Part shown: piece after piece, positions 14,889 to 24,819 of the stretch
Position numbering within the stretch: position 1 is the stretch's first letter
How the letters are laid out: each line of letters starts with the position of its first letter
Origin: an uncultured Chromatiaceae bacterium
GTDB lineage: Bacteria > Pseudomonadota > Gammaproteobacteria > Enterobacterales > Alteromonadaceae
NCBI GenBank assembly: GCA_946482615.1
Contig: CAMLSF010000018.1
Location: 1 to 38,163, forward strand
Reading direction: 5' to 3'
Length of the DNA stretch: 38,163 nt
Position numbers and translations under genes: made by a program
The notes under the pieces: model-generated
The model's database searches: none
Told to the model about the DNA's origin: nothing
The model's input: only the letters and a program-made list of their open reading frames with translations

Positions 14889-14916
14889 AAAAAGGCCAGA
14901 GTGGTTTGCTCTGGCC
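14887..14916 (-). terminator. terminator of the subtilase genes, minus strand
   Basis: On the minus strand GGCCAGAG (14916-14909) pairs with CTCTGGCC (14901-14894) with a 7-nt loop, followed by T at 14893-14887. It is 20 nt past the subtilase stop. The U-tract overlaps the last bases of gppA on the other strand; in the plus direction the hairpin is not followed by T, so gppA has no matching terminator here. Confidence 0.85.
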
Positions 14917-14936
14917 CCTGAATCACTACACTTAGT

Positions 14937-17900
14937 TTAGCGTTTTAATCTTCTGCTTACCGGTACTAACAACAACATCAGGCTGAACCAGCTTAAACTG
15001 CCGCTGCTGTTCTTTTGTGGTGCTTTCAGCGCTATGCTGACAGTTGCTGTGGCTGTGCTGTCATCTTCTGCACTGCTGGCTTTTAATTGCAACACTATAG
15101 TGCTGTCTTGCTGCACTTCCGGTGCCTTCAGGCTTACAGTGCCTGTTTTATCTCCAGTTAATGCTACTGTCGGACCTGAAGTTTGAGTCCACTGATAGCT
15201 GACGGCTTCAGTTCTGCTGCTGACCGCTGCAACAGAGACTGTATCCCCTGCTTTTGCAGTCAGGCTGGCATTGGTCTGGCCGTTAATGCTGAGCTTTAGT
15301 TCAGAGAGTACCTTCACTGCAGGGGCCTGAATCACAGCGGATGTATCATTTTGCTGATACTGTAATGACCAGTTAATTTCGCCCAGTAGCCCGGTATTCG
15401 CAGGGGTTAAAGTCAGATCGATAGTCTGAGCTGCAGCGCCAGCGGCTTGTGTCAGTTCGATGATATTGCCATCCACCGCAGAACCTGAAAGGGTCCAGCC
15501 TGTGGGGACCTGAGCTTCTAACTCCAGCGTTCTGGCTTGCTCTGAGCTGTTAGCGGCAAGCTGCAATTGATAACTTAAAGCTTTGCCTGCCAGTTCAGTC
15601 GTTTTGCTGCTGTTCAATTTGACTAAGCTGGCATGTTGTTGCAGGTTTATTTGCAATACGGAAGCTAAGTCTCCTTGTGGATTGGTCAGCACTGTATCCG
15701 CTATCCAGAACTCATCTGTGTCACTTTCAGGTAATTGCCAGTCCAGTTTGAGGCTGTATTCAGTCGCAGACGATGGCACAACACTGACTTGCAGATTATC
15801 TGCCTGTTCTGCGCTGTCTGATTGCGCGACACTGATTTCAATCTGATCCGTTGCACCTGGTGCACTGCCCTGGAAATTATGCACAGCCAGCCAGTAACGA
15901 CCTGGTTCAGGTAAGGTGAGATTACAAAGTTCATTATTATCAGGACCTGTGCTCTCACAAATCATACCAAAGAACTCCTGGGAAGTACCTGATGCGTCAG
16001 GGCGACCATTAAGGTTTAAATCCCGGCCTATATAGAAGTCCAAATCCTGAGTTGTGGTTTTAAGCACAGAGACATAAATTCGTTGCGTATCAGTGGTGAA
16101 TTGCAATGGAATTGAGTATGTAGACTCGGTTGTGCTGGCCCAGTCGTTGCCTGAAGGTTCGGTTAGCGGAGCTTTTAGTTCAAAACTATGTTTTTGAGCT
16201 TTTGTCAGACCGATACTTTGCACTGTCAATTCTGCCGGTGACGTGGCTGAAATAAAACCTGACACCAGAGCTGAGCCAGACCCCTGTTGTGCTGTCAGTT
16301 TGCTTTGCTCCGGGCCAACCCCTGCTTTAAATTTAACAGATACAGGCATTTTCAGCTTTTGTTGACCTTCAGTCAGTACCAGTGACGCGAATTGCCAGCC
16401 TGTTCTGCTTTGGGCGTTAAAGCGTGCAGTAATCACCAGTTCCTGCGATTCACCTTCAGCTAAGCTGAAACTTGCCGGGCTGACACTGATATCCATAGCA
16501 CCCTGAATCATTTGTGCGCTGCTTTGCCAGCTTCCCGCTTTGGTGGCTGTCACTGTGCGGGTCCAACTGCAACTTAATAAACAATCCGCCTGTACTAAAC
16601 TTGGAATATTTAATGCTGTTGGGTCGCCGCCCTGATTTGGATCTGCAGCCAGATATTCCTCTTTGCTGATATCCAGCAATAAACCTGCTTTCGCAGCTTC
16701 ATGCACCTGTACCATGCCAGCACCCATTTCAAAAGGTGTGGCTTGTTCAGTGGTGCCATCCAGATTGTCGTCCTGGCGAACTGAAGTATTGGCCGTCAGC
16801 ATTAAGGCTGACTGTGCCTGAGCAGGCGTCCAGTCCGGATGCAGGGCTTTTAATAAAGCTAAAGCGCCGGCTACATGAGGGCTGGCCATGGAGGTACCAT
16901 CCAGCATGCCAAAGTCGGCTTCTGCTTTGCTATTGTTATAAGGCTGGTATCTGGCGTAGGCCGCATAAATGCCAACCCCCGGAGCTGATAAAGCCGGAGT
17001 CAGGTAGCTGTCATAAGGCAATGCCGGGCCACGTGAAGAGAAACCACCTAAGATGCTGCCTTTGTCAGCATCCTGGGTCATTTCAGACGCACCTATACTG
17101 ACCTGGATACCGGCAGTGGTCAGTTCTGTCAATAAGGTCGCACCGTCTTCTGTATTGAGGTGGATAGCCGGTAAGGAATGCAGATCCGGATCTACCGTAT
17201 CAGCGCCCCCTTCAAGGTTAATCAACACCATACCCAAAGCACCACCAGCCTTAACATTACGGCCTTTTTCTACCCGTGCAATTTCACCGCGGCGACATAA
17301 CACAATTTTGCCGTCAAAAGTGCCGGCAGCAAAAGGCCGCATACAGTTGCCGTCACCACCTGTGCTGGCGTCGACTAACAAACCGCTGATAGCCGATGTT
17401 GCACCTTTACCCGTCAGTACTTTGCCACTTGGCAGGCTGATGGTTTTATCGGTAAAAGCACGGTCATGAGTGGCTGCTGCAACGGACGTCAGCCAGGGGG
17501 CATTGCCCGGGCTGCGCACAGTGCTGGCGTCAGGGCCTGAGTTACCTGCTGATGTTGCGACATGCAAGCCAAAAGCTCTGGCATTTAAAAACGCCAGACT
17601 TTGAGTGGATGTCCATGGGTCCTGCACCGGTCCGCCAACAGAATAGTTGATGACTTGCACACCATTAGCTATGGCGTGCTCTAAAGCTTCGATAGCTAAG
17701 TCGGTGTAACAACCAGCCAAATCATCGTCACCCTGACCTGGTAAACATACCTGATAGGAGACAATGTTGGCATGAGGGGCCACACCACTGACCATAGGGA
17801 AACGGAACTCCGCTTCATCTCCTACCGGGTTAATAGCAGGCACCTGATACAACACGTTACCTGCGACAGTAGCTGCGACATGGCTACCATGGCCATTAAA

Positions 17901-18671
17901 GTCATAACCAATCTGAGTACGCTCAGCTAAGTCAGCGTATTTAGGGTCCGATAAAAGTGGGTACTGACTAATGATGCCAGGGAAACTCACTACTCCTATC
18001 AGTTTATCGTTACAGTACTGAGCATAGATCTGGCAGTCGCCCAGATAGTTGCCTTCGCCTAAAGGGTTTTGGTGATCATAGCCATCAGCTCCTACATCAG
18101 CAAAGCTGGCGTGATCGGTGTTAATACCTGTATCCAGAATACCCACTATGACGTTTTCACCTTTGGTGGCTGTGATACCCTGCTCACCAGCCCATACTTT
18201 GGCTGCGCCAATGTAGTTGGGGCCTGAGTCTGTCATCAGATAATGCATCTGACGCTTTTCTACCGCTTCTATACCGGGCTGTTTAGCGAGTTCTTTTGCG
18301 GTATCGGCATCCATTTTGACCACTGCAGCGTTGACGCTGTATTGATAGGTGGTCAGTGTCTGCAGTGGACGTTTTAAGGTTTTGCTGGCTTGCTGCAACT
18401 GAGTTTGTTGCTGACGCTTTAATTGCTGTACATAACTTCTGCTGCCGGCGGATTTGGCGTTCAGCGTACCTTGAGTGGCTAAGGCTGAATTGGCCAGAGC
18501 CGGCGCAGTAAAACGGACAAAATAGACATCGTCAGATGCAGCAGATAAGGCTTTTTCCGTGGCTGCCGTCACTTTATTGAGTGTATTGGGCAGTGCATCA
18601 TCACTGGTTGTCTGTGCTGCTAATAGCGGGCTTATGGCCGCTATTGCTAAATAAAAACTCTTGTATTTCAT
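14937..18671 (-). CDS. secreted S8 subtilisin-like serine protease with PA insert and GlyGly-CTERM tail
   Basis: A 1244-residue exported protease. Order of parts: signal peptide (about 1-19, cut near LLAAQ), I9-like inhibitor propeptide (about 45-145), S8 domain (about 165-680), beta-sandwich domains, and a pre-peptidase/PPC-like or cadherin-like module around 870-1000 with NELCNLTLPEPGRYWLAVHN. A PKD/Ig-like domain near 1130-1215 and a C-terminal tail NSSGSLSWFSLMLLLVPVSRRLKR complete it. The triad is intact: D180 (GILDTGINTDH), H261 (FNGHGSHVAATVAG) and S594 (DGTSMASPHVAG), with oxyanion N377 (TSAGNSGP). A PA domain is inserted at about 440-530. The tail (small Gly/Ser motif, helix, basic end) is the GlyGly-CTERM type used by rhombosortase and type II secretion. 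It lies 52 bp after the pseudosubtilase gene and is likely co-transcribed with it. Vpr/lactocepin-like proteases are the nearest relatives. Confidence 0.93.
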   Translation of the reverse strand: MKYKSFYLAIAAISPLLAAQTTSDDALPNTLNKVTAATEKALSAASDDVYFVRFTAPALANSALATQGTLNAKSAGSRSYVQQLKRQQQTQLQQASKTLKRPLQTLTTYQYSVNAAVVKMDADTAKELAKQPGIEAVEKRQMHYLMTDSGPNYIGAAKVWAGEQGITATKGENVIVGILDTGINTDHASFADVGADGYDHQNPLGEGNYLGDCQIYAQYCNDKLIGVVSFPGIISQYPLLSDPKYADLAERTQIGYDFNGHGSHVAATVAGNVLYQVPAINPVGDEAEFRFPMVSGVAPHANIVSYQVCLPGQGDDDLAGCYTDLAIEALEHAIANGVQVINYSVGGPVQDPWTSTQSLAFLNARAFGLHVATSAGNSGPDASTVRSPGNAPWLTSVAAATHDRAFTDKTISLPSGKVLTGKGATSAISGLLVDASTGGDGNCMRPFAAGTFDGKIVLCRRGEIARVEKGRNVKAGGALGMVLINLEGGADTVDPDLHSLPAIHLNTEDGATLLTELTTAGIQVSIGASEMTQDADKGSILGGFSSRGPALPYDSYLTPALSAPGVGIYAAYARYQPYNNSKAEADFGMLDGTSMASPHVAGALALLKALHPDWTPAQAQSALMLTANTSVRQDDNLDGTTEQATPFEMGAGMVQVHEAAKAGLLLDISKEEYLAADPNQGGDPTALNIPSLVQADCLLSCSWTRTVTATKAGSWQSSAQMIQGAMDISVSPASFSLAEGESQELVITARFNAQSRTGWQFASLVLTEGQQKLKMPVSVKFKAGVGPEQSKLTAQQGSGSALVSGFISATSPAELTVQSIGLTKAQKHSFELKAPLTEPSGNDWASTTESTYSIPLQFTTDTQRIYVSVLKTTTQDLDFYIGRDLNLNGRPDASGTSQEFFGMICESTGPDNNELCNLTLPEPGRYWLAVHNFQGSAPGATDQIEISVAQSDSAEQADNLQVSVVPSSATEYSLKLDWQLPESDTDEFWIADTVLTNPQGDLASVLQINLQQHASLVKLNSSKTTELAGKALSYQLQLAANSSEQARTLELEAQVPTGWTLSGSAVDGNIIELTQAAGAAAQTIDLTLTPANTGLLGEINWSLQYQQNDTSAVIQAPAVKVLSELKLSINGQTNASLTAKAGDTVSVAAVSSRTEAVSYQWTQTSGPTVALTGDKTGTVSLKAPEVQQDSTIVLQLKASSAEDDSTATATVSIALKAPQKNSSGSLSWFSLMLLLVPVSRRLKR

Positions 18672-18692: not shown

Positions 18693-18709
18693 GGCTCCCC
18701 AAAGGAGCC
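18693..18709 (-). other. hairpin between the two subtilase-fold genes
   Basis: GGCTCC (18693-18698) and GGAGCC (18704-18709) form a 6-bp GC-rich stem with a CCAAA loop in the 52-bp gap between the genes. On the minus strand the stem is followed by ACAAACAATAAA, not a U-tract, so it is more likely an mRNA processing or stability element that sets unequal amounts of the two proteins than a full terminator. Confidence 0.5.
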
Positions 18710-18723
18710 TTTGTCGGATTCAG

Positions 18724-21700
18724 TTAAATGGTGCGACGCTGAACTAAACGCACAAACCCAGCCATTACCAGCAGAACTAACCATACATAATTGATACTGC
18801 CGCCTGAGCTTTTAGCCGGAGCTTCAGGCACCGTCAGTTTAAGTTCGGCTGTGGTTTTATGGTCGCCATCCGTGGCTGTGATAGTAATGGTGCTGCTTTG
18901 GGATACAGTGCCATGTAATAACTTCTGTTCTGCGTTGTACTTTAAACCTGCAGGTAAAGCACTCAGGCTCAATGTCAGGCTGTCGTTGTCTGCATCACTG
19001 AACCAGTCTTGCAAAGACACTGATAGTTCCTGTTCGGCCGTCAACGAGTAACTGGTTTGTGCTGTACTGGATAGTTGCGGGGCGTTGTCATTGATATTTT
19101 GTAGCTTAATAGTGACAGGCACCGCAGATGAGTTGAGATCATCTCCTAAGCGCGCCTGCACTTTAAAGGTCAGTTCCGCTTGGGTTTCGAAGTCCAAAGT
19201 GTCGGCATTGGCCACCAACAATTCGCCCTCAGGAGTTAAACGAATCGGACTACCCGGAATGGCGTCCACTATAGCTAACAGATGTTTGCGATCTGATTCC
19301 AGTTCACCACCTTCGGCAAAATAACCAAAGCTATCCAGTTGCACAAAACCCAGGCTGGTGCCTGTTGCTGTGTGCTCAGTGGTCAGGAACTGCTGACCTG
19401 CTCTTGGTGTGGCGATAGAGGTTTTCGCGTCCCCCATTTTTATATCTGCAGTTAAATTGAAGTTGGAGTCCAAAGCCATCAACATAAAACCTTTGCCGCA
19501 GGTATAACCAAAACCGCAATTGCCTTCATTGATACCAGTAAGGGTGGCGGACTGCCCCGGAGCTAAAGTTAAGCGCTCAGAGTAAACACGATCGGGTTCG
19601 GCTACAGGTGCCGGGCTTAATAAAACGCGGTTGGACTGGTTGTCGATTTTTTCAATCAAATTACCAAACCAGTCATATTCATAAGTAATATGAATAGCGC
19701 CCATATTAACCGGGTTAAACTGCATGATAGGTTCGTGGGCATCGGGGAAAGCATCGCGGTCTGTGCTGACGATATAACCTAAGTTATGATTTAAATCTTC
19801 TGGCGCAATACCCCAGGGTTCCAGCTCTTCCAGGCAATATTCCACTAAAACATTACTACTATCACTGGTAAAGCGGACAGGCAATTTAGTGGGTTTATAG
19901 CGGGCGTTTGGGTTATTAAAATCATATTCCATACTCAGATCAGTGTAATAACCCACAGGCTTACCTGTTGTGAAATCAATACTGACATAACCACGGAGCA
20001 ACACGTCAGCTTCCGTTCTGTTGACTAATACCTGATTGGCTGGCAGCGTGGCATTATTGGCAGTAAAGTCGTGTTTCAGAATTTCCCATGCGACCAGTGC
20101 GTCTCCGCGTTCAATATAACTGGAGGTCGCCAGCTCTTTAGCCTGGAAAAAACTGGTGGCGATAGAAAACTTCTGGCCGCTGCTGCAACTTGCTTCCGGA
20201 AATACGCCATTACCTACAGCTTTGAGTACAGCACCTTCAGAGTCTTCCAGATGCAAAGGCATAGCCGTGCGTTGTCTTAAGGTCGGGTAAACCGCATATT
20301 CGACAGTTTTATCTGAGGTATTTTTGAAATCCTGCGCCAATACTTTGTAGTTATCAAAATACTTAGCTCCTATGGTGGAGCGATAACCGTCTAACGACAG
20401 ATATTCTGCAAAGCTCGAATAGTTTTTCTGAATATCAGCTTTGGTTCTGGCCCGTACCTGCCAGGCCAGCTGACTGCTTGGTTGGCCGTCGCTGCTCAGT
20501 TGAATATAACCATCCAGTTCAGTTTCGCGCCATTTTTCTGCACTGTAGTCGTTACCTGTCAGCATGGGCCAGTTAGCCAATAACGCAGAGTCTATAGTCA
20601 AACTAACCGGTACTAAAGTTGAGCGGCCTGCACCAATAGTGACCGAAGTGGCATGTTGCCAGCTTAAGGCTTTATGACGTTCTGGTTGATTGGCATTGAC
20701 TGCAATTTTGTAGGTTAATGCCTTGTCGGTTAAATTCCTCAGATAAATATGGCGTGTTAAGGTGGTGCTCTGATTGGCTGGTACTTCCTGTAAACCAAAG
20801 TTAATCCCGGTTTGGCTGGTGTCTGCATCCCAGGCTAGTAAAGGACTTTTTTGTGCTGAGGTTACATTCACTAATCCATGGCCTATCCAGCTGACTTCAG
20901 CCTGATCTGCGCCATCAGGAGTTTTCACTGCTGAATCTGCTGTGGTGTTGATCAGTGCTTTTAGCTCGACACCAGATAACTGTGGATGCCTGGCTTTTAA
21001 CACTGCTGCAGTGGCTGCGGCATGAGCTGCAGCATAAATAGAACCTTGGGCTGTGGCTGTGGCTTCACCCGAACCCACCGCTGCACCGGTAATATCTTTG
21101 GCCTGGGCTATGACGTCTGGTTTTAATAACTCCAGTTCACCACGAACAGGACCGTGAGGTGAGTTGGCGTCAATTTTTATGATGTCACCATCATGATAAG
21201 CAGAGCCTACCGCTAAAGCCGAAGGAGCTGTTGCCTGATAAGGGGTTGCGAAGCGATTTGATGATTCAAATTCCCCTTGCGCTACTACTACCAAAGCGCC
21301 AGTACTGGCAGCACGCTGAATAGCAGCAGGGTAAAGAGAAAGCTGGTCGCCACTACTATCTTTCTGGCTATAAATACCATGGCCATAAAACTGGAAATCC
21401 AACAAAATCACATCAGCTTTATCTGACAAATCACCGTCACCATTTGGATCCAGTGCCCACTCCATCGCTCTGGATAAAATGGCGTGATCCGGTCCTGCCA
21501 GGTAAGCAATTTCGCCGTTTTCCGCCATAATGCTGTACATTTTACCGGCACGAATTTCTGCTGCCGGTACTAACTGATGAATATACGACGCCAGCAAGGT
21601 GCCGCGACCTGTAGGGTAAGCCCCACCAGGTATTTCATAGACTAAATCAGATTCGATAGGGTTATCGTCATAACCAAAGCTGGCATCCGGGTGGTCGGAA

Positions 21701-22356
21701 ATAAAATCACGGCCTGAGGTCACTACAGCGGTTGGAAAGCCTTTGTAGGGGCCTCCCGCATTTCTGATGGCTTGCTGATAGGCTTCGGCTGTACCTGTGC
21801 CTCCTAATAACTTGTGAGTGTAATCCACACCTGTAGATAAAACGGCCACAGTCACCCCTTTGCCACCATCCACGCCTGCCAACGCGGCCGGCAGTTCTGC
21901 GGACGCAGCAAATTTATGCAGCTGTTGCGGAACAGGTTGTGTGCTGAGTAACTGGGCTTTTAAAGCGGGGTCAAGTTTGGTGACTTTTTTCACCTCAGCT
22001 AAAGATGTTAATTGCGCAGCTTGTTGTTCGGACAGTTCGACAGAGACCTGATTATCAAACAGTACACTTTGTCCCAGCACTTTGATCTGACCAAACTGGT
22101 TTTTCAGACGGCTGATAAATTCTGCCTGTTGTTTTTTGATGGCCTGATGCTGAGCTTTATCGACCTGGCCTTGTTGCAAGGCGCTGTCGAGTTTCAGCTC
22201 TATGTTGTACACAGCTATAGCATCTGTGGCTGTCGTGGTGGTCGCAAAAGGCTTTTGTTCTGACTGAGACGGCAGATGAGCCGTCTCTGCCAAAGCAGGA
22301 GTTGACGACAGCGCCGCCAGTATAGCCCCCGCCAGACTGTGAATAGTTCTTGGCAT
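18724..22356 (-). CDS. secreted subtilisin-fold pseudoprotease with cadherin-like domains and GlyGly-CTERM tail
   Basis: A 1210-residue exported protein of S8 fold with all catalytic positions changed. Parts: signal peptide (1-23, cut after ALA), I9-like propeptide region (about 45-135), S8-like domain (about 160-480), beta-rich middle, a cadherin-like repeat ending in QNINDNAPQL, a second cadherin-like domain (WFSDADNDSLTLSLSALPAGL), and the tail SSGGSINYVWLVLLVMAGFV...RRTI. Where subtilases have D in VLDTGVDYTH, this has S174 (VLSTGVDYTH). The His of GHGTHVA is R251 (GRGTLLA), and the Ser of GTSMAAPH is I440 (GSIYAAAH). The oxyanion AGN reads QGE (360-362). Fold-marking sequence survives (ALDPNGDGDLSDKADVI, ELKALINTTA). 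I chose ATG 22356 since AGAGGA lies about 6 nt upstream; an in-frame ATG at 22380 lacks one. The frame is unbroken, arguing against a decaying pseudogene. Confidence 0.88.
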   Translation of the reverse strand: MPRTIHSLAGAILAALSSTPALAETAHLPSQSEQKPFATTTTATDAIAVYNIELKLDSALQQGQVDKAQHQAIKKQQAEFISRLKNQFGQIKVLGQSVLFDNQVSVELSEQQAAQLTSLAEVKKVTKLDPALKAQLLSTQPVPQQLHKFAASAELPAALAGVDGGKGVTVAVLSTGVDYTHKLLGGTGTAEAYQQAIRNAGGPYKGFPTAVVTSGRDFISDHPDASFGYDDNPIESDLVYEIPGGAYPTGRGTLLASYIHQLVPAAEIRAGKMYSIMAENGEIAYLAGPDHAILSRAMEWALDPNGDGDLSDKADVILLDFQFYGHGIYSQKDSSGDQLSLYPAAIQRAASTGALVVVAQGEFESSNRFATPYQATAPSALAVGSAYHDGDIIKIDANSPHGPVRGELELLKPDVIAQAKDITGAAVGSGEATATAQGSIYAAAHAAATAAVLKARHPQLSGVELKALINTTADSAVKTPDGADQAEVSWIGHGLVNVTSAQKSPLLAWDADTSQTGINFGLQEVPANQSTTLTRHIYLRNLTDKALTYKIAVNANQPERHKALSWQHATSVTIGAGRSTLVPVSLTIDSALLANWPMLTGNDYSAEKWRETELDGYIQLSSDGQPSSQLAWQVRARTKADIQKNYSSFAEYLSLDGYRSTIGAKYFDNYKVLAQDFKNTSDKTVEYAVYPTLRQRTAMPLHLEDSEGAVLKAVGNGVFPEASCSSGQKFSIATSFFQAKELATSSYIERGDALVAWEILKHDFTANNATLPANQVLVNRTEADVLLRGYVSIDFTTGKPVGYYTDLSMEYDFNNPNARYKPTKLPVRFTSDSSNVLVEYCLEELEPWGIAPEDLNHNLGYIVSTDRDAFPDAHEPIMQFNPVNMGAIHITYEYDWFGNLIEKIDNQSNRVLLSPAPVAEPDRVYSERLTLAPGQSATLTGINEGNCGFGYTCGKGFMLMALDSNFNLTADIKMGDAKTSIATPRAGQQFLTTEHTATGTSLGFVQLDSFGYFAEGGELESDRKHLLAIVDAIPGSPIRLTPEGELLVANADTLDFETQAELTFKVQARLGDDLNSSAVPVTIKLQNINDNAPQLSSTAQTSYSLTAEQELSVSLQDWFSDADNDSLTLSLSALPAGLKYNAEQKLLHGTVSQSSTITITATDGDHKTTAELKLTVPEAPAKSSGGSINYVWLVLLVMAGFVRLVQRRTI

Positions 22357-22734: not shown

Positions 22735-24819
22735 ATGTTGCCCGATTTCGCTGATGTAGTGCTTGGACCTTGTCGGATCCAGAGTGATAATCACAAAATT
22801 TCCGGACCACTTTCCGAAGTGCAACTGCCCGCACGTGTGTTTGAAGTTCTGCAGTATTTAATTCAGCATCAGGACAGAGCAGTGAGTCGGCAAGAGCTTA
22901 TTCAGTGCATTTGGTCAGGCAATGATGCGGTAGGACAAAAGGGTCTGACCAATGCGATATGGCAACTACGTAAAGCTTTTGAGCAGACGGGGGCAGAGCA
23001 GGAGCTGATACTTACCATTGCCAAAACCGGTTATGAGTTGGCGGTACAACCTCAGCCTGTTCATCCTGACTATCGAATCAATCAGATTAAAACTGTAGCC
23101 TCTTCCATGCGCTGGATTTGGTGGTTGCTCGGTTTAAGTATGGTCGTGGTTATATTGCTGTTATGGTTCAACCGACAGCAAACAGCTCCAATTGACACCG
23201 TACTAAAACCCGATATCCGGCCACGTCAGCTCACGTCTTTGCTGGGTGTGGAGGAGATGCCCATTTTTAGTCGTGATGGCCGTTATATGGCCTTTATGGC
23301 GGACGCTCCGGGTCAGGCGCCAGGGATTTTCCGATTGGATTTGCAACAGATGAACAAAGCCGCTGAACGTCTGACGCCAGAGCATCAGTATGCGACAGCT
23401 CCAGCCTGGTCACCTGATCAACAACAACTGGCCTATCTTGAAGTTCAGCAGAATGACTGTCAGGTAAGAGTGTTGGATTTGGCCTCGAAGCAAAGCAAAA
23501 CCTTAGCCAATTGCTTCCATCAGCATTTACAAAACACCTTATCCTGGTCTGCCAGCAACAATATGCTGGCCTTTGCTGCGGTGAATGAGCTGGGTGGGGT
23601 CAATATCCAGGGCCGTGATATGAACACAGGACGCATGGAGCGGTTGTCATCTCCCCGTGCTGATACACAGGATTATCCACTGGCTTTTGCCAATCACAGC
23701 GCTCAGCTCGCTTATGTCCGCCAGACCAAACATCTGGGCATGATTTATCTGCGAGAAAGTGATGGCAGTAGCAGAGCCTTAACTAAAGAGCCTTTGTATA
23801 TCTATTCTCTGGCCTGGAGTCCGGACGATAAATTCCTGTATTTCAACAGCGTTTGGCAAGGTGAATTGTCGATTTTACAAATCTCAGTTCAAACAGGACA
23901 AATTACCCCGCTGTCTTATGTCAAAGCGCCTGGCCGTATCGCGGTCAGACTTGGTCCTCAGCCTGAGCTGGTGTACACCCAATACAATAGTGAAGAGCAG
24001 TTGTATCGTATTAAGAAGGGACAGGAACCCGTGTTGATGCCCAAAACTTTGGGTCGTGAACTGTATCCAGAGTACACAACCACTTCGGATCAACTATTGT
24101 TTATGTCCAGTCGTAGTGGTCGTTTTGATTTATGGCATTCTGATTTAGCCCAAACCAAGGTGCAGCGGGTACATACTACTTATGAAGGGCTGGTGGATAT
24201 CGCCAGTCTGGCACCGGACGGCGAGCGTTTTGTGGTACCTGCACGCAGCAACGAAAATGAACCAGTCCAGCTTTATCTTGGCACCTTGTCTGGGCCGGAT
24301 TTTAAGCCCGTCAGCGAAAAACCTTTTGAAAGCCAGCATGCCAGTTGGAGCCGAGACAGTCGAAGTTTATATTTCAGCTCAAATATCAGTGGTGATTGGC
24401 AGATTTGGCGCCTGGATTTGCAATCCGGTATTTCGCAGCAACATACGGTGAAAGGCGGTATCTTTGCCCGTGAAGCACCGGATGGCCGGCTGTTGTATGT
24501 GAAAGCTTTAACAGGCGGTATTTGGCTGCAGGATCAAAAAGGTGGTGAACAGCTACTGGTGCCAGAGTTGGCTGAAGTAGACTGGGGCAATTGGTTGGTG
24601 GATGAAAAGGGGATTTATTATCTGCAGCGTTTGCCTGACGCCGATTTATGGATGTTTAAAGCCTGGGGCCAAAGCTTGAGTGAGGAGTTATTCAGAGTTC
24701 CGGGGCGCAGCATTAAAACCAGCCGTTCTGTCACTGCAATCAGTGAGGACGAGTTTGTCCTGTCTATGTATGGGCGCAGAGAAGCCAACTTAATGGCAGT
24801 ACCACTGATAGCTCAGTAG
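22735..24819 (+). CDS. membrane-bound CadC/ToxR-like transcriptional regulator with periplasmic TolB-type propeller
   Basis: A 694-residue one-component regulator. Residues about 10-104 are an OmpR/ToxR-type winged helix (LPARVFEVLQYLIQHQDRAVSRQELIQCIW, split over helices 1-2; then LTNAIWQLRKAF and a TIAKTGYEL wing). One membrane helix follows at about 126-145 (RWIWWLLGLSMVVVILLLWF), placing the rest in the periplasm. The periplasmic part is a beta-propeller of PD40/TolB repeats: FSRDGRYMAFMA, WSPDQQQLAYLE, WSPDDKFLYFNS, SRSGRFDLWHSDL, WSRDSRSLYFSS and APDGRLLYVK. Such proteins sense envelope signals and bind DNA directly from the membrane. AGGA sits 4 nt before ATG. It diverges from the subtilase-fold gene pair, the most likely target. 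It converges on hemB after 24 bp. Confidence 0.9.
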   Translation: MLPDFADVVLGPCRIQSDNHKISGPLSEVQLPARVFEVLQYLIQHQDRAVSRQELIQCIWSGNDAVGQKGLTNAIWQLRKAFEQTGAEQELILTIAKTGYELAVQPQPVHPDYRINQIKTVASSMRWIWWLLGLSMVVVILLLWFNRQQTAPIDTVLKPDIRPRQLTSLLGVEEMPIFSRDGRYMAFMADAPGQAPGIFRLDLQQMNKAAERLTPEHQYATAPAWSPDQQQLAYLEVQQNDCQVRVLDLASKQSKTLANCFHQHLQNTLSWSASNNMLAFAAVNELGGVNIQGRDMNTGRMERLSSPRADTQDYPLAFANHSAQLAYVRQTKHLGMIYLRESDGSSRALTKEPLYIYSLAWSPDDKFLYFNSVWQGELSILQISVQTGQITPLSYVKAPGRIAVRLGPQPELVYTQYNSEEQLYRIKKGQEPVLMPKTLGRELYPEYTTTSDQLLFMSSRSGRFDLWHSDLAQTKVQRVHTTYEGLVDIASLAPDGERFVVPARSNENEPVQLYLGTLSGPDFKPVSEKPFESQHASWSRDSRSLYFSSNISGDWQIWRLDLQSGISQQHTVKGGIFAREAPDGRLLYVKALTGGIWLQDQKGGEQLLVPELAEVDWGNWLVDEKGIYYLQRLPDADLWMFKAWGQSLSEELFRVPGRSIKTSRSVTAISEDEFVLSMYGRREANLMAVPLIAQ

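Follow-up and report, generated by a model that had tools for sequence, protein, structure and literature searches.

Why would a bacterium keep, in one unbroken frame, a large secreted protease in which every catalytic residue has been replaced? The question is raised by a contig from an uncultured Chromatiaceae bacterium (GTDB: Alteromonadaceae; assembly GCA_946482615.1, contig CAMLSF010000018.1, positions 1 to 38,163), the whole 38,163 nucleotides of which are referred to here as the window. Its minus strand encodes a catalytically dead subtilase of 1210 aa with an ATG start (18724..22356, from translation). In alignments the catalytic Asp position is occupied by Ser (codon 174, 21835..21837), the His position by Arg (codon 251, 21604..21606), the oxyanion Asn position by Glu (codon 362, 21271..21273) and the catalytic Ser position by Ile (codon 440, 21037..21039), all as read in a first-pass annotation made from the sequence alone. 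We propose, with a probability of roughly 0.55, that the product is a secreted pseudoprotease: a conserved, non-catalytic partner of the live subtilase encoded beside it, serving as the regulatory subunit of a heterodimer.

The catalytic residues have been lost throughout the whole dead-subtilase clade. Among 48 aligned homologues (near-copies included), none has a complete Asp-His-Ser triad; 42 have no triad residue left and six have one. The Asp site holds Ser in 36 sequences, Gly in 11, Ala in one and Asp in none, while His at the His site (3/48) and Ser at the Ser site (3/48) never occur in one sequence. The first-pass annotation had asked whether the losses are shared across species, and whether another alignment might restore the triad. 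The tree and the alignments place the triad-less homologues in a single clade, and the second possibility was ruled out by an alignment-free motif scan, in which none of the 48 dead homologues has an intact triad. The dead proteins of three loci, L066, L067 and L068, retain the His, and two of the three the oxyanion Asn, with neither Asp nor Ser.

Is the dead gene simply decaying? We compared 27 loci: 25 around full-length genome matches (19 genomes), one from Rheinheimera faecalis (L001), and the window. The dead frame is open in all 27 and is at least 1193 aa long in the 26 other than the window; a TAA flagged inside the genome match at L054 is the stop terminating its 1281-aa frame. The window was compared with two relatives, L001 and L048, by the ratio of non-synonymous to synonymous substitution rates (dN/dS). 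The whole dead gene gives 0.066-0.080, and its S8-like part 0.063 and 0.089; in the same comparisons the live partner has 0.071-0.076, the neighbouring regulator 0.064-0.078, hemB 0.009-0.017 and ppx 0.024-0.027. With some dS values close to 1 or exceeding it, all these ratios are rough. The last 30 codons (1181-1210, window 18727-18816), which hold the sorting tail, evolve much faster than the rest (0.32 and 0.75). The dead protein is under purifying selection. The earlier suggestion, that the protein is maintained by selection although its proteolytic activity has gone, is thus supported by the single triad-less clade and the low dN/dS, and nothing named as evidence to the contrary was seen: no member of the clade has kept the whole triad, dN/dS lies well below 1, and the frames at the 26 other loci are open. 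The greater divergence of the dead protein than of its live partner is what gene decay or a faulty alignment would lead one to expect, but the 27 open frames, the dN/dS and a clade without an intact member leave such an explanation next to no room. Decay as such is ruled out by dN/dS together with the shared origin of the dead clade.

The live partner (1244 aa; 14937..18671, minus strand; domain scan and alignment) has an I9 propeptide, an S8 domain with D180, H261, N377 and S594, a PA domain and a GlyGly-like tail. The dead gene lies 5' of it on the same strand, 52 bp away. An adjacent S8 gene was found in 27 of 27 loci. Twenty-four share the co-directional, dead-then-live order, with gaps of -68 to 91 bp in 23 of these; at L055 the gap is 712 bp because the live frame is split, and the N-terminal piece is 64 bp away. 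(L055 11940-15467 has the live partner in two frames beside an intact dead gene; sequencing error and recent loss are both possible.) With L055 left out of the partner alignment (A3), the residue counts and the distance test below, Asp, His, Asn and Ser are intact in all 26 aligned live partners. An I9 propeptide was found in 22 of these 26, the window's included, and a PA domain in 26 of 26, as against none of 31 dead proteins. As a control, 14 of 36 family genomes with standalone matches only were taken: the 13 kb around the 14 standalone active subtilases, the nearest active relatives of the dead protein among those found, contained no second S8 gene or regulator (0/14; E<=1e-5, these queries). 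The dead and live genes are physically linked.

The short gap in the window contains a hairpin (GGCTCC-loop-GGAGCC; 18693..18709, minus strand, sequence comparison) with no T-run after it on this strand. Its stem is identical in three of three sequences while its loop varies; such conservation fits a single transcript, and the hairpin could tune the ratio of dead to live product. A terminator scan of the minus strand found none in the gap between the two genes, and placed a terminator-like hairpin with an 11-bp stem and a T-rich tail directly 3' of the live gene (14891..14919, minus strand); since such sites are about as common as in shuffled sequence, only its placement is telling.

Dead and live genes are also inherited together. 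Patristic distances among the dead and among the live domains correlate at r = 0.89 (26 loci); none of 5000 permutations reached this value, the best being 0.37. The omission of L055 leaves five of the six two-copy genomes. When partners were swapped within these five two-pair genomes, all 31 swap sets lowered r, and three of the five single swaps dropped it to 0.62-0.83.

Where did the dead protein come from? In a subtilase-domain tree (82 of 94 rows, 12 near-duplicates having been dropped; quick method, midpoint root), all dead proteins fall together (support 99), apart from the live partners, and the standalone active subtilases make up a group of their own (support 98). The tree program warned of long branches meeting at the split, and for this reason profile scores and a shared motif were used beside it. 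The 14 standalone subtilases (L088-L101), all with intact triads, score 310-392 bits with the dead-protein profile and 121-156 with the partner profile. The dead-protein profile aligns to all 14 over positions ~1-620 and from ~940-1000 on, reaching the C-terminus in nine; the middle part of the dead protein is unalignable. D[TS]G[IVL]D[YF]TH in the standalones corresponds to STGVDYTH in the dead protein, the D-[YF]-T-H motif being common to both. All 14 standalones carry 128-153 extra residues at one place, which in L091, the sole one scanned with Pfam, are a PA domain. From the profile scores, the extent of the alignments and the shared motif, the dead protein most likely descends from the standalone active lineage. 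A tandem duplication of the live partner was considered and is unlikely, given the separate position of the dead clade and profile scores that favour the standalone lineage; by these sequence comparisons, the dead protein probably did not arise as a decayed duplicate of the partner.

If not proteolysis, what is the cleft for? The 12 closest sequences agree on the replacements S, R, E and I, with a single Glu-to-Asp exception, as would be expected if the cleft had been re-used for other chemistry. Across the 48 sequences, however, the Asp, His, Asn and Ser positions hold 3, 7, 11 and 13 kinds of residue, which is unlike an active site, and many of the top-conserved residues of the dead proteins are common to active relatives; we consider a new enzyme highly improbable. 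Within the fold, conservation at the Ser site lies at the 2nd percentile, at the Asn site at the 4th, at the His site at the 41st and at the Asp site at the 72nd, and the loop around the last (STG.DYTH) stays well conserved (loop z 3.17). Poorly conserved Ser and Asn sites and a middling His site, with the Asp loop and fold residues kept, speak against the cleft having a conserved catalytic use. The pattern would be compatible with a structural, partner-binding role, though it falls short of proving one.

The same pattern bears on two further explanations. In the first, the two proteins serve the same pathway without touching: the dead subtilase is a surface binder of peptide or matrix (a receptor or adhesin) that brings substrate near a co-regulated protease. 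A subtilisin fold with Ig/cadherin-type domains and a sorting-type tail would suit this task, as would the conserved Asp-site loop, and co-regulation with a secreted protease suffices to explain the linkage. Yet a single conserved mode of peptide binding at the catalytic centre is unlikely where the Ser and Asn sites are among the least conserved and the His site middling, and an adhesin has no obvious need for a live subtilase of another lineage adjoining it in every locus; on balance we hold this explanation to be unlikely, though deserving of serious attention. The second would make the dead protein an inhibitor decoy or immunity factor, which soaks up foreign inhibitors or the cell's own propeptides, or blocks the live enzyme in the periplasm. 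It is encoded together with that enzyme and has retained the fold recognised by subtilisin inhibitors and propeptides (subtilisin-inhibitor complexes are among the structure matches of its subtilisin-fold model); what inhibitors read, however, is the cleft, and at its Ser, Asn and His sites the clades differ. We think this explanation improbable.

We therefore return to the regulatory subunit, favoured because the dead gene is linked to an active subtilase at every one of the 27 loci. Of the functions listed in the first-pass annotation, those of a partner to the active protease (chaperone or inhibitor, to which a regulatory subunit is added here) are favoured; decoy, substrate binding and adhesion are ranked lower. 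In the proposed mechanism, (i) both proteins would be made from one transcript, the dead subunit first, (ii) both would be exported by Sec and then by the type II system, (iii) a rhombosortase would process both tails, bringing the proteins to the cell surface, (iv) the dead subunit, presumably unable to remove its own propeptide and retaining the subtilisin fold without a PA domain, would bind the live enzyme, and (v) as the regulatory subunit of the heterodimer it would escort that enzyme, setting its folding, latency or substrate access. Since 22 of 26 live enzymes bring an I9 propeptide of their own, we prefer a regulatory escort to a pure foldase.

Several observations weigh against this reading. 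The pair is divergent, its genes 507-674 bp apart, in the L066-L068 clade, so one transcript is not universal (3/27). A live enzyme with its own I9 has no obvious need for a folding helper. Neighbourhood and shared regulation alone also yield co-inheritance, and two of the five single swaps shift r by only ~0.001. The dead S8 domain evolves 1.89 times as fast as the live one. Lastly, live relatives of ~1750 aa occur without a dead neighbour at four sampled loci, one of them in R. faecalis; the live lineage can thus exist alone, and its dependence on the dead protein is not absolute.

These ~1750-aa relatives sit beside 17 partners, within the partner group (support 85), and look as though they had been freed from the pair. 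Those at L103 (7153-12399), L105 (7742-12973) and L106 (7507-12765) are ~500 aa longer than the window's partner; beside the second of these, L105 2-964 is a partial subtilase frame scoring 61 bits with the dead-protein profile. One genome carries several relatives of the live partner on a single contig (L104 6621-11620; genome G261, contig C130), where one copy is split in two frames and another match has an internal TAG. In the genus sample, dead gene and partner are present together in two of 22 genomes; the dead gene was not found in the other 20 at E<=1e-60, and 13 of these carry more distant live relatives.

What might govern the pair? On the plus strand, divergent from the dead gene, lies a 694-aa regulator with a winged helix-turn-helix (wHTH; Trans_reg_C) and a PD40/TolB-like propeller (22735..24819, domain scan); a hydrophobic stretch between the two reads as a membrane span. 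A gene of this wHTH-propeller type is present in 24 of the 27 loci (fetched stretches of 14-38 kb), and at 19 of them it lies no more than 700 bp from the dead gene; none was found within the fetched stretches of L055, L060 and L064. In seven of eight genomes tested (of 20 hosts), the window's regulator finds its best match in the one at the pair. The regulator tree correlates with that of the dead protein at r 0.71 (19 loci) and 0.55 (24 loci), and with that of the live one at 0.43 and 0.31. The divergent regulator probably controls the pair.

Both proteins end in a GlyGly-CTERM-like sorting tail. The dead protein's (residues 1184-1203; 18748..18807, minus strand) scores 14.6 bits against a cut-off of 15.5, and the live partner's 12.8 bits, also below it; at E<=0.5, matches were obtained for 13 of 31 dead members and 13 of 26 live ones. 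The rhombosortase model TIGR03902 exceeds its cut-off in all 20 genomes of relatives with the pair and in none of the 14 control genomes. It is a tentative idea, for which we would give somewhat less than even odds, that these parts make up a Gram-negative protease of two subunits displayed at the cell surface, the dead one, recruited from another subtilase lineage, permanently regulating the live one under a dedicated membrane regulator with a propeller sensor. If true, such a sense-and-digest module has no counterpart in the searched literature.

The remaining architecture of the dead protein (all on the minus strand) is as follows. Its ATG start is kept in two relatives. Residues 1-23 read as a Sec-type signal peptide with ALA/E cleavage (22288..22356), A23 being invariant in 22 of 22 rows of an alignment (A1). 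Residues 47-127 (21976..22218) are propeptide-like, with a predicted beta-alpha-beta-beta-alpha-beta order in the structure model (numbered as the protein minus 23), and gave no Pfam I9 match in the domain scan; a disordered linker follows at residues 130-152. The subtilisin-fold domain, without PA insert, spans residues 152-506 (20839..21903), as identified by domain scan, model and structure matches, and the S8 profile is present in it; with its incomplete triad the protein belongs among the non-peptidase homologues of peptidase family S8. Residues 505-1050 were modelled separately (pLDDT 87.9). At least one-fifth of the VIA-align rows for this model are confined to an Ig-like domain, its first 135 residues; past these, Foldseek gave no close match, which is not grounds for calling the remainder new. 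A He_PIG Ig-like domain occupies residues 1097-1176 (18829..19068, domain scan).

How widespread is the family? A protein search (best 7995 candidates scored) returned at least 21 relatives at 31-99% identity over most of the length, with Rheinheimera pacifica and Ferrimonas gelatinilytica proteins among the matches listed; the R. faecalis member at L001 is 89% identical to the window's dead protein. A second search, with a profile, gave no new members among the best ~8000 candidates. Genome samples centred on R. faecalis yielded full-length members in 11 of 295 from its family, two of 22 from its genus and 12 of 394 from its order (samples overlap); the family and order searches scored at most two candidates per genome, and copy counts are lower bounds. 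A class-wide sample of 369 genomes (E<=1e-40) returned just two, the genome already known and another that carries a standalone active relative. No plasmid match was found at E<=1e-10. A role in anti-phage defence was considered and rejected: PADLOC gave no match for the dead protein (E<=0.001), and its partner matches only a general subtilase model.

Does the pair resemble anything known? No paper on it was found in the openly licensed papers searched. Vpr (8jmw, from B. subtilis) and the streptococcal C5a peptidases, whose titles name active forms, are near systems; neither is known to have a paired pseudoprotease, nor is ORF2 of Aeromonas sobria, discussed below, known to be a subtilase. 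The standalone subtilases align with the dead protein at both ends, but differ in their intact triad, their extra block and the lack of any subtilase neighbour found. For secreted subtilases of Arsukibacterium, close to Rheinheimera, passages of PMC4767292 report conserved triads, and the words 'inactive' and 'non-peptidase' are absent from the paper.

The closest parallels are two. Firstly, CspB of Clostridioides difficile is active, while CspA and CspC, encoded with it in the cspBA-cspC locus, are triad-less; CspC, which retains its prodomain, pairs with CspA in a heterodimer (PMC6636752, PMC12880746). As there, a triad-less subtilase is encoded at one locus with an active one (27/27 loci; triad intact in 26). 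A further point against our proposal lies here: by a section heading of PMC12880746, the CspC:CspA complex excludes active CspB, and contact between the dead and live proteins is therefore not to be assumed by analogy. The Csp proteins are Gram-positive, spore-cortex and germinant-sensing, and carry a jelly-roll insert; the pair described here is Gram-negative, with signal peptides and sorting-type tails. Neither a CspC nor a CspBA model matches the window's dead protein at E<=1, and the CspC model matches one of 31 dead members (E=0.13). Live partners fit these models better (CspC 6/26, best 1.5e-5; CspBA 10/26), the window's partner scoring 14.4 bits against a CspBA cut-off of 1250; these matches are general subtilase similarity.

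Secondly, according to PMC5638518, the adjacent ASP and ORF2 genes of A. sobria encode a secreted subtilase and a protein that binds it as temporary inhibitor and chaperone. A secreted subtilase beside a candidate helper is common to both systems; the ORF2 gene lies downstream of the protease, whereas the window's dead gene comes first. A title cited there calls ASP propeptide-deficient, unlike the 22 of 26 live enzymes here, the window's included, that have an I9 propeptide.

How a dead protease controls a live one, and why the helper comes from another lineage rather than from duplication of the partner, are questions that can be tested in this family, and as the live enzymes are large secreted proteases their control is of practical interest. 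The pair resembles both Csp and ASP/ORF2 in layout and fails one tested defining feature of each. Bacterial subtilase pseudoproteases appear in the searched literature only for C. difficile and the related germination pathway; the family described here is a second, separate case, in Gram-negatives, with one clade, dozens of sequences and two-pair sets within single genomes.

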